64,000 nucleotides of DNA from Hydrocarboniphaga effusa AP103. GTDB taxonomy: Bacteria; Pseudomonadota; Gammaproteobacteria; Nevskiales; Nevskiaceae. The notes under the pieces are model-generated. The model did no database searches. It saw nothing but the letters and a program-made list of their open reading frames with translations, and was not told where the DNA came from. Each line of letters opens with the position of its first letter. Positions within the stretch are counted from its first letter, which is position 1. Positions 28,449 through 45,649 of this stretch are shown here, piece after piece. The stretch covers positions 1,736,001-1,800,000 of the forward strand of contig NZ_AKGD01000001.1 of NCBI RefSeq assembly GCF_000271305.1, written 5' to 3'. The position numbers were made by a program, and so were the translations under genes.

Positions 28449-29174
28449 ATGCTGTTGATACCCGCCATCGATCTCAAGAACGGCCATTGCGTGCGACTTC
28501 GCCAGGGCCGCATGGATGACGTCACCATCTTTTCCGAAGACCCCGTGAGCGTCGCCCAGCGCTGGGCCGACGAAGGGGCCGAACGCATTCACATCGTCGA
28601 CCTCGATGGCGCCGTCAAGGGCCAGCCGGTCAACCTCAAGGTGGTCGAGGCGATCGCCGCAGCGGTCGACGTGCCGGTACAGATCGGCGGCGGCATTCGC
28701 GACGAAGAAACGATCCAGCGGTATCTCAACGCCGGCGCGGCCTACGTGATCATTGGCACCAAGGCCATCAACACGCCGCACTTCCTGCGCGACGTCTGCC
28801 TCGAGTATCCGCGCCACATCATCGTGAGCCTCGATGCGAAGGACGGCCGCCTCGCCCTCAACGGCTGGGCCAAGGTCACCCATTTCGACGCCATCGAAGC
28901 CGCGCAGCACTGCGAGCGCGACGGCGTCGAGGCGATCGTCTACACCGACATCAGCCGCGACGGCATGATGGCCGGCTTCAACGTCGAATCCACGCGCGCG
29001 CTCGCCCAGTCCGTGAAGACGCCTGTGTTCGCGAGCGGCGGCGTTTCCACGCTCGATGACATCCGCAAGCTCAGGGAAATCGAAGGCGATGGCGTGGTCG
29101 GCGCGGTGATCGGCCGTGCCCTCTACGAAGGCGGCTTCTCGCTTGCGGATGCCGTGAAGATCGCCAAAAGCTGA
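28449..29174 (+). CDS. hisA: ProFAR isomerase
   Basis: 241-residue TIM-barrel isomerase of histidine synthesis. The catalytic aspartates are in LLIPAIDLKNG (Asp8) and VYTDISRDGM; phosphate-binding loops are at PVQIGGGIRDEETI and PVFASGGVSTLDD. Downstream, between hisA and hisF, lies the 119-base inverted-repeat element (29178-29296). Confidence 0.96.
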   Translation: MLLIPAIDLKNGHCVRLRQGRMDDVTIFSEDPVSVAQRWADEGAERIHIVDLDGAVKGQPVNLKVVEAIAAAVDVPVQIGGGIRDEETIQRYLNAGAAYVIIGTKAINTPHFLRDVCLEYPRHIIVSLDAKDGRLALNGWAKVTHFDAIEAAQHCERDGVEAIVYTDISRDGMMAGFNVESTRALAQSVKTPVFASGGVSTLDDIRKLREIEGDGVVGAVIGRALYEGGFSLADAVKIAKS

Positions 29175-29177
29175 GAT

Positions 29178-29296
29178 GCCGGGAGACGGGGAACGGGAGA
29201 CGGGAGACGAACACGGCACGCTCGAAGGCTTCGAGCATCGTTCGCAAACCCGAGCCTGCTTTTACGTCTCCCGTCTCCCGTTCCCCGTCTCCCGGC
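29178..29296. repeat. perfect 32-bp inverted repeat element in front of hisF
   Basis: The left arm 29178-29209 and right arm 29265-29296 are exact reverse complements over 32 bases and are built of GGGAGACGG-like units. The 55-base centre carries its own perfect hairpin GCTCGAA-GGC-TTCGAGC (29220-29236). The element ends eight bases before the hisF ATG. A third copy, differing by one base, is at 45035-45066. It resembles the short dispersed intergenic repeats of xanthomonads. Confidence 0.9.
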
Positions 29297-29304
29297 TGTA
29301 AGAC

Positions 29305-30099
29305 ATGCTCGCCAAACGCATCATCCCCTGCCTGGACATCGACCGCGGCCGCGTGGTCAAGGGCGTCAAGTTCGCCGAGATCCGCGATGCCGGCGATCCG
29401 GTCGAAGTCGCCCGTCGCTATGACGCCCAGGGCGCCGACGAACTCGTCTTCCTCGACATCACCGCGAGCGCCGAAGACCGGCCGACGCTGTTCGCGACCG
29501 TCGAAGCGGTGGCTCGCGAGATCTACATTCCGCTGACCGTCGGCGGCGGCGTGCGCACGAGCGCCGATGTTCGCGCCCTGCTCAAGGCGGGCGCGGACAA
29601 GGTCTCGATCAACACTGCGGCCGTGCAGAAGCCCGACTTCGTCACCGAAGCGGCCGAGCGCTACGGCGTGCAGTGCATCGTCGTCGCCATCGACTGCAAG
29701 CGCGTGAGCAAGAAGAAGGAACCGCCGCGCTGGGAAATCTTCACCCACGGCGGACGCAAGGCCACCGGCCTCGATGCGATCGAATGGGCCGCCAAGATGG
29801 TCGACAAAGGCGCCGGCGAGCTGCTCGTGACGAGCATGGACCGCGACGGAACCAAAGAGGGCTACGACCTCGAAGTGCTGCACGAGATCAGCAAGATCGT
29901 AACCGTGCCGGTGATCGCCTCAGGCGGCGTCGGCAATCTCGAACATCTCTACGAAGGTTTCTCGCAGGGCGGCGCCGATGCGGTGCTCGCCGCGAGCATC
30001 TTCCACTCGGGCACCTATTCGGTGAACGATGCCAAGACCTACCTCGCGAGCCGCGGCGTGCGCGTGCGTCAGGGCGATATCCGCAGCGCGGTCATCTGA
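29305..30099 (+). CDS. hisF: imidazole glycerol phosphate synthase, cyclase subunit
   Basis: 264-residue TIM-barrel cyclase that works with HisH to make IGP and AICAR. The catalytic pair is [13 protein letters not shown] (Asp11) and [16 protein letters not shown] (about Asp130). The ribosome binding site is poor (TAAGAC just before ATG), because the repeat element ends eight bases upstream. A stem formed by the repeat could therefore affect translation. Confidence 0.96.
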
Positions 30100-44900: not shown

Positions 44901-45026
44901 AAACTCGATGTCGGGTAGCGATTCGAGCGGCAATCGTTGCCCGGCGATGAGCCCGATCAAGGTCATGCAGACGAAGAACATCGCCACCGTGACCGGCCGC
45001 TTGAGCGACAGCGCGGTGAGGTTCAT
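41961..45026 (-). CDS. RND-family efflux permease (downstream copy)
   Basis: 1021-residue inner-membrane pump subunit of the HAE-1/AcrB type, driven by proton influx. The start MNLTALSLKRPVTVAMFFV is typical; there are twelve helices in two repeats with large periplasmic loops. Helix 4 has GMLVDNAVVVTESIF, with one Asp of the usual DD pair replaced by Asn, as in many related pumps. ATG 45026 overlaps the PAP2 stop. It shares the operon with an adaptor and a second RND pump, but no outer-membrane channel gene is adjacent. Confidence 0.93.
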   Translation of the reverse strand: MNLTALSLKRPVTVAMFFVCMTLIGLIAGQRLPLESLPDIEFPFMVVNVPYRNSTPEEVERRITRPVEEAIATLPGLKRIESKSRDDGVEIELQLDWGADLAVKGVEARDKIDSIRDKLPDDVQRVQVFKFSGSDQPMLQLRISADRDLSGAYEMLDRNLKRRLERIAGVSKVELYGVEEKQVRIMLAADRVASHGIDIAKLGAQLQKANFALSAGQITDGRLRYTVRPEGELTTLDAVRNVVIDASGLRLGDIAEVQYTDPELTYGRHLNRRFAIGVNVFKETGANLVEVGERAKAEIERIKELPEMKGIRLFPMQDQSQEVKQSLADLLEAGAIGAVLSVLVLWLFLRDIRMTLIVTLSVPLSLCMTLAAMYFLGLTLNILTLMGLMLAVGMLVDNAVVVTESIFTERLKTGDAVEATLSGVRKVGMAVVAGTLTTAIVFLPNVFGAQNEITVFMSQVAFTITIALAASLLVAVTLIPQLTTRMVSGDASGGARFLVVLSAFYARTLGWTLRHRGWTSLMIVVLLGSVIVPLKFVKTDMFPAEDGTRLLMQYNLNGVYRVDKVEEAVSTIENYLFANQASLGFDSVYSYFDVSSAQTVLIMPEKKLRKRSNASVMEEIRAQMPKLAIGSVSFEQNRSGTADKLGVRVFGESAEHLRDVADDVVRTLRLVKGLTDVRVIAEAEDQEVRIRIDRERARQNGLSSQQVADAVAAAMRGTELRPFRTATGEVDMIVEFRKQDRADFEAILSMPILRPDGARITLGSVAQVDVGNTPGNITRENRMASLKVQFGTAEGVTSEDAKKSVENVLNDLQFPPGYSWGYSQAFDDEAQNMQGMLVNMLLAMALIYLVMAALFESTLEPSAIITGIFFSFVGVFWFFMITATTMSFMAMIGLLILMGVVVNNGIVLIDHVHQLRASGMPREEAVIQGSRDRLRPILMTVATATLGMVPLALGETSVGGNGPPYYPMARAIIGGLTFSTVVSLGVLPSTYCMLDDLRVWGARVVAKARGQALSPRGVQLP

Positions 45027-45649
45027 GGGGTGAGGCCGGGAGACGGGGAACGGGAGACGAGAGACGTACCAGCCACAGCAAAACACAGCGCGATAAACGC
45101 AGAGCCGATGACATCCCCGAGGTAATGATCGCCTTCGACCACGCGCGCGAATGCGAGCAGGCTCGCGATTACGACCAAGGGCCAACGCCAACGCGCAAAC
45201 ATCAGCGCCGGCGGAATCAGCAGGCCCATGTAGACCGCCGTATGACCCGACGGAAACGAATCGTGGCCCGCGACGAAGAAATCGGCGAGCCGTGGATCGG
45301 CCAGGTATTCGAACGGACGCACGCGCTCGAACACGCTCTTGAGCCAGGTCACGCTGATGCGCGTCGCGAACAGCACGACGGCCGTAATCGCGAATGGCCG
45401 CAACCAGGCCCGGCCGGTGAACCGGGTCAACGCGCCACCGAGGACGACGAGCACGAGCGGATGTACCCATTTCGGCAGCCAGGGCAGCACGAGCCAGGTG
45501 ATCGCATCGGTGAACGTGCGCGCGATCGGCACCAGCGCGGAGGCGTGCTCCGCAAGCCATAGCGAGACCAGGCGGTCGAAGCCGAGCGTACAGACAAGCA
45601 TTGCGGCGAACAGGCCGGCCAGTGCGACGTAACCGCTGCGCAGGCTCAT
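45023..45649 (-). CDS. PAP2-family membrane phosphatase
   Basis: 208-residue PAP2 (phosphatidic acid phosphatase type 2) protein with six predicted helices. The active-site motifs are KSVFERVRP, SFPSGH, and ARVVEGDHYLGDV. It would act on lipid phosphates such as undecaprenyl-PP or phosphatidylglycerol-P. It overlaps both RND genes by four bases (ATGA on each side). The last ~12 residues (SLVSRSPSPGLTP) come from a dispersed repeat copy (45035-45066). Confidence 0.85.
   Translation of the reverse strand: MSLRSGYVALAGLFAAMLVCTLGFDRLVSLWLAEHASALVPIARTFTDAITWLVLPWLPKWVHPLVLVVLGGALTRFTGRAWLRPFAITAVVLFATRISVTWLKSVFERVRPFEYLADPRLADFFVAGHDSFPSGHTAVYMGLLIPPALMFARWRWPLVVIASLLAFARVVEGDHYLGDVIGSAFIALCFAVAGTSLVSRSPSPGLTP
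45035..45066. repeat. third copy of the 32-bp dispersed repeat, inside the PAP2 gene
   Basis: Matches the left arm of the hisA-hisF element at 31 of 32 bases (one G to A change). It lies in the coding 3' end of the PAP2 gene, just before the stop that overlaps the RND start. Confidence 0.9.

Follow-up and report, generated by a model that had tools for sequence, protein, structure and literature searches.

Inverted tandem-heptad arms suggest a relation of a hairpin between hisA and hisF of Hydrocarboniphaga effusa to elements that carry S23/IVP genes

The hairpin that lies between hisA and hisF in Hydrocarboniphaga effusa AP103 is likely to belong, as a 119-bp copy without a gene, to a family of hairpin elements with inverted tandem-7-mer ends, whose gene-carrying members hold an S23/IVP gene (PF05635, encoding a four-helix-bundle protein) at gene junctions or as an intervening sequence (IVS) in 23S rRNA. 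The window, that is, the whole stretch of DNA analyzed around it, comprises 64,000 nucleotides (positions 1,736,001 to 1,800,000 of NZ_AKGD01000001.1), and the assembly (G000) comprises 5.19 Mb in 4 contigs. A sequence-only reading of this DNA had interpreted the feature as an inserted inverted repeat of a dispersed family. That interpretation is partly supported, and it missed that the arms are tandem 7-mers, that a heptad family is already in print for Xanthomonas (PMC4692102), and that there is a tie to S23/IVP genes. The features in the window are as follows.

28449..29174, + strand: hisA (context), named from the sequence-only reading and from reading of the sequence
29178..29209, + strand: left arm, GCC followed by the heptads GGGAGAC GGGGAAC GGGAGAC GGGAGAC and a final G, with the G-rich strand running inward
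29210..29264, no strand: loop of 55 nt, without an S23 gene
29220..29236, no strand: perfect 7-bp hairpin with a 3-nt loop inside the 55-nt loop, found by reading; the fold prefers other pairing
29258..29265, no strand: GCTTTTAC, the reverse complement of the inner-end motif GTAAAAGC common to many copies
29265..29296, - strand: right arm, the exact reverse complement of the left arm
29305..30099, + strand: hisF (context), with homologues in 41 of 41 genomes
45036..45066, + strand: single arm GGGAGAC GGGGAAC GGGAGAC GAGAGAC, at one end of a called minus-strand ORF (45023-45649)

The sequence-only reading had described a perfect 32-bp inverted repeat with a 55-base spacer, ending eight bases before hisF, and this description proved exact. 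The arms (29178-29209 and 29265-29296) are 32 nt each, 100% complementary, and separated by 55 nt, and only 3 nt after the end of hisA (29174) and 8 nt before the hisF ATG (29305) lie outside the 119-bp element. Each arm consists of four tandem 7-mers of the GGGAGAC type. The long RNA stem that had been expected just ahead of hisF is also predicted: the fold of the transcript 29172-29310 (-96.7 kcal/mol, z = -12.5) retains the 32-bp stem in full. The nested hairpin (GCTCGAA-GGC-TTCGAGC, 29220-29236) is perfect by sequence, as had been noted, but the minimum-energy fold pairs the loop otherwise. An Rfam search of the window returned no known RNA family at the gathering score.

The element is one of many in its genome. 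The pattern GGGARACGGGARACG, which represents two heptads with at most one mismatch, matched the genome 95 + 113 times and, when read backwards, 0 times, so the heptad pattern is not a product of chance. The genome has about 40 heptad places, mostly inward-facing pairs, which bears out the suggestion of a dispersed family, and the genome-wide pattern search excludes a total of only three copies. The recurrence that had been reported at 45035-45066 does belong to this family, but it is a single arm at 45036-45066 with one base different from the hisA-hisF arm, its fourth heptad being GAGAGAC instead of GGGAGAC. We analyzed 34 stretches of the genome, with two or more additional places, among them C2:475741 and C2:512857, lying outside this set, and left L010, which duplicates L009 exactly, out of the counts of arm pairs and arm variants. 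Pairing of arms within 160 nt gave 25 convergent and 0 divergent pairs and left 17 other arms. Loops of the pairs ranged from 18 to 103 nt (median 54), and half of the paired arms (25/50) contained exactly four heptads, with 2 to 24 units per arm seen. Inner arm ends were often GTAGAAGC or GTAAAAGC, and the outer end was GCC in 24 of 37 four-heptad arms. Among 35 gene-less arms, the variant GGGGAAC was heptad 2 in 11, heptad 1 in 2, and heptad 3 in 3, and the copies thus share a positional consensus. The idea of arm-specific coevolution within this genome was rejected: arms were no more similar to their own partners than to the arms of other copies (identity of 0.703 versus 0.704, with 2604 of 5000 permutations as high), and per-element pairing is therefore not visibly selected in G000.

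Comparison with relatives agreed with the proposed insertion between hisA and hisF. In three genus mates, alignment shows a hisA-hisF gap of 24-27 nt from which the element is absent, and the GGGAGAC unit is nearly absent from these genomes (1-2 matches each). From this pattern of presence and absence we infer that the element is mobile; movement itself was not seen, and neither a donor nor a recombinase was identified. Across the order, a heptad pair adjoining GTARAAGC occurs in 9 of 85 genomes. Copies of this type outside G000 have mostly GGGAATC or GGGAGGC heptads, and GGGAATC with the same inner end GTARAAGC occurs in related genomes of the family. An S23 gene was found in only four of these nine genomes, so S23 is not needed for the present occurrence of the copies. 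The hisA-hisF gap itself holds a heptad element at 4 of 30 hisF loci, namely, in G000 (GGGAGAC) and in 3 of 29 relatives (GGGAATC in G021, GGGAGTC-like in G020, and GTGATTG-like in G024). We also considered a reverse transcriptase as a partner and rejected it, as the copies show no dependence on one: across the order, RVT_1 is present in 29 of 85 genomes, in 5 of the 9 with GTARAAGC-type copies, and in 6 of the 18 with S23.

The tie to S23/IVP genes starts from another copy in the same genome. Arms at C1:1910791 and C1:1911193 enclose an ORF that matches PF05635 (E 2e-35) and is the only S23/IVP gene of G000; its product matches the structure of XCC0516 (PDB 2gsc) with an E value of 3.7e-42. 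The hisA-hisF copy shares the inverted arms of tandem 7-mers with the S23/IVS elements, but its 55-nt loop has no S23 gene, it encodes no protein of the PF05635/2gsc kind or any other, and it does not lie in 23S rRNA. Other S23 genes proved to be flanked by inverted arms built from different 7-mers, an association that we measured in 200-bp flanks at 96 S23 loci, drawn from the order (22 of 22 rows), the class (29 new of 68), the phylum (29 new of 92), and plasmid records (16 of 29), where those from the class and the phylum are the top-scoring matches, so that weak ones are under-sampled. The controls were 86 hisF loci, comprising 30 plus 56 of another 80, those below 6,700 bases being left out; the contig search for hisF gave mostly distant phyla, which were used as controls only.

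Flanks of S23 genes differed sharply from those of hisF. A period-7 self-match of at least 17/21 was found in 97 of 192 S23 flanks versus 5 of 172 hisF flanks, and both flanks reached at least 16/21 at 45 of 96 S23 loci versus 0 of 86 hisF loci. Among the hisF flanks with heptads, three owe them to the hisA-hisF elements found in G000, G021, and G020. Period 7 dominates; apart from a few period-8 loci, no other period between 4 and 13 rises above background. An inverted match between the flanks of at least 18/24 occurred at 80 of 96 S23 loci, compared with 2 of 86 hisF loci and 29 of 288 mispaired flanks. With 13 loci removed as redundant and the threshold raised to at least 20/24, the counts were 51 of 83 for S23, 0 of 86 for hisF, and 0 of 124 for windows displaced by 900 bp within the same S23 loci. 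These 83 loci come from Pseudomonadota, Cyanobacteriota, Bacteroidota, and Gemmatimonadota, and arms were absent from four of them (L173, L182, L183, and L262). The S23 loci include cyanobacterial plasmids (Anabaena, Nostoc, Calothrix, Geminocystis, and others), Azospirillum, Riemerella, and Gemmatirosa, the last with a period of 8. The strong arms have 74 distinct consensus heptads and, read inward, contain more G than C in 107 of 120 cases. A general bracketing of S23 genes by inverted heptad arms seems to be new: in open-access PMC we found no report of an S23-heptad-arm link beyond the Coxiella heptads described below, and none of dispersed heptad pairs as gene-less relatives of S23 elements.

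Gene-less copies share the arms of their own genome's S23 element in two genomes. In G000, the 5' arm of the S23 element reads GGGAGAC GGGGAAC GAGAGAC GGGAGAC, with the position-specific variants of the gene-less copies. In G021, the heptad of the S23 element, GATAGTA, is also found in six other closely spaced convergent pairs, and it is absent from G000 and G069; in the four of these six pairs that were read, the third heptad varies in a like manner (GTTGGTA/GTTTGTA/GTCGGTA), and inner ends of the set include GAAAAAGCGG. One other genus has AGGCAGT arms in 7 of 8 genomes, several of them away from the S23 gene, and two of these proved on reading to be gene-less pairs. Against shared arms, the S23 heptad of G052 is GTGAGGG versus GGGAGGC in its one matched gene-less copy, and G021 also carries a GGGAATC set.

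Heptads of this kind are already in print. Xanthomonas campestris and Xanthomonas axonopodis carry dispersed GGGAATC repeats, mostly of four units, in 70 and 75 convergent inverted pairs (Rehm et al. 2015, PMC4692102); these are mostly intergenic, near ORFs, and generally not associated with mobile elements, and the terms S23, four-helix, intervening, and IVS do not occur in the retrieved text of that paper. The G000 copies resemble them in having tandem G-rich 7-mers, usually four (25/50 arms), and convergent inverted pairs (25 convergent, 0 divergent), but the unit is GGGAGAC/GGGGAAC instead of GGGAATC (PMC4692102). The TAACTGA heptads of Beggiatoaceae are likewise intergenic and near start codons but, with one exception, are direct, whereas the hisA-hisF arms are inverted (PMC4679880); the retrieved text has no mention of S23. 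One alternative to an S23-related family is that all such heptads are simple sequence repeats that exist for regulatory G-quadruplexes of the G-rich strand, as proposed for Xanthomonas GGGAATC, with the S23 link being incidental. The four G-runs per arm, the exactly four heptads in half of the G000 arms, and the four-unit preference and in vitro quadruplexes of the Xanthomonas repeats (PMC4692102) would fit this explanation. Yet a three-tetrad quadruplex is possible, on one strand or the other, in only 27 of the 105 non-redundant strong S23 arms, which means that the elements are not united by quadruplex formation; the heptads GATAGTA, AAGTTTC, and AGTCTAA are incapable of it, and inverted pairing and period 7, not G-runs, are what the elements have in common. 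We consider this explanation improbable.

Related elements do not resemble each other in the sequence of their ends. We built a protein tree of S23 (92 rows with few columns, in which many forks are unsure and L181, L186, and L217 are short or partly left out) and named junctions by reading the flanking translations. S23 genes from one junction group with support, and their heptads differ. The ahcY-metF clade (98/94), to which the long-branched L183/L184 are also joined, has GGGAGAC, GGGAATC, GTGAGGC, GGGAGGC, and GTGAGGT; the nuoI-nuoJ clade (99/95) has GGAAACC, AGTGGCC, GATAGTA, and one degenerate heptad; and same-site pairs with differing heptads were found at four other sites. The two arms match at a mean of 18.9/24 within a locus (n=22) versus 15.1 between loci of one site (n=128), with a rank test giving 1e-6 over cells that are not independent. 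Two courses of events could account for this: a resident element whose two arms change jointly, or renewed entry of related S23 elements with other arms at one site. In both, the arm sequence is decoupled from the gene. An ordinary MITE, with terminal inverted repeats moved in trans by a DNA-transposon transposase and heptads as a quirk of its ends, would account for dispersed copies, inverted ends, and absence in genus mates, but it is a poor candidate given that end sequences are wholly different between related elements, that the gene between the arms is S23 and not a recognized transposase, and that no target-site duplication is visible at hisA-hisF against the three empty genus-mate sites.

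Membership of an S23-related family also brings in the intervening sequences of rRNA. Most S23 genes lie outside rRNA by reading of their flanks; the S23 locus L217 lies inside a 23S rRNA gene, with an Rfam LSU match at 277-2799 around it, and has arms of GAAGACA heptads, so the classical rRNA intervening sequences belong to the family. The Coxiella IVS, which RNase III cleaves in vitro, has a 28-bp inverted-repeat stem, and its tandem GACAGAT heptads differ in number from strain to strain (PMC4990558). It has in common with the family of the hisA-hisF copy a stem of about 28 bp, tandem heptads by the ORF, and an S23/IVP gene inside; the heptads are noted there solely as direct repeats upstream of the ORF, and the hisA-hisF copy differs in having no S23 gene and in lying between two protein genes (PMC4990558). 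Such rRNA intervening sequences with S23 ORFs are thus in print (PMC4990558), as are the Xanthomonas heptad pairs (PMC4692102) and S23 genes between cas genes (PMC3936711).

We give least credence to the view that the element is an intercistronic regulator under selection, acting on translation of hisF or on decay of the mRNA. The very stable predicted stem 8 nt before the hisF start and the heptad elements of other sequence in the same gap of 3 of 29 relatives (G020, G021, and G024) could speak for it, but genus mates manage without the element, and copies occur at many other junctions. Of 36 G000 elements whose context was called, the hisA-hisF copy included, 19 were codirectional, 8 tail-to-tail, 2 head-to-head, and 7 overlapping an ORF, typically 2-10 bp from the neighboring stop or start, according to a codon-model caller that recovers the his genes and is crude, with start sites unsure. 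Because most of these copies sit at other junctions, a hisF-specific function is unlikely, and nothing was found that points to a role in balancing HisA against HisF. The hisA-hisF copy is probably close to neutral for hisF, since its flush-paired base would put the hisA stop and the hisF start 11 unpaired nt apart.

As a gene-less member of the S23-related family, the hisA-hisF copy could have been derived from S23 elements or have spread along with them. In RNA, its 32-bp stem would be a substrate for RNase III, by analogy with the rRNA intervening sequences. Hairpin-templated correction is known from quasipalindromes. Slippage within an arm would alter the number of units and keep the heptads uniform, copying from arm to arm through the hairpin would keep both arms alike, and together these processes could let the structure and the 7-nt register persist while the sequence drifts. 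More tentatively, S23/IVP genes may define one class of hairpin elements throughout bacteria, with ends recognized by their 7-nt register and not by sequence; the pentameric S23 ring (or the copying machinery that it serves) would hold one 7-mer per step and so let both arms change to a new 7-mer in place. In that case, a single system would have given rise to the rRNA intervening sequences, the heptad repeats of Xanthomonas and cyanobacteria, and the hairpin between hisA and hisF. What S23/IVP does, where rRNA intervening sequences come from, and what the heptad repeats of Xanthomonas and Nostoc mean have so far been puzzles apart, and the controlled association turns these three into one question. 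It raises the questions of whether S23 binds heptad arms, whether RNase III acts on mRNA copies as it does on rRNA copies, and how both arms come to have a new 7-mer at one site, and it provides an annotation rule: a small four-helix-bundle gene with inverted 7-mer arms around it.

Several S23 loci had features of their own. Flanks at L230, L244, L247, and L255 are tandem with period 8, not 7 (for example, TAGGGGAG at L230), and L230 and L244 encode sister proteins in the tree. At L177 and L179, which by reading lie at the dnaK-dnaJ junction, spaced GTGAGG units flank the S23 genes, with small GC-rich hairpins between the units and no plain heptad arrays. S23 genes with tandem-repeat arms lie between CRISPR genes on cyanobacterial plasmids at L248, L257, and L255 (cas6-cas4 twice and cas10-cmr3 once), and the S23-Cas association in print may reflect insertion of the element, not function.

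Within G000, the loci L009 and L010 (C1:51900-55100 and C1:255400-258600) are identical over all 3169 compared bases, heptad element included, which represents either a recent duplication or an assembly artifact (the stated contamination of the assembly is 8.28%). The heptad pairs of L014, L019, and L028 seem to lie inside long ORFs, not between genes. At L013 (1495-1641; C1:501394) and L021 (1657-1970; C1:2353056), 20-24 perfect GGGAGAC units stand in a row, in one arm of pairs that are otherwise ordinary.
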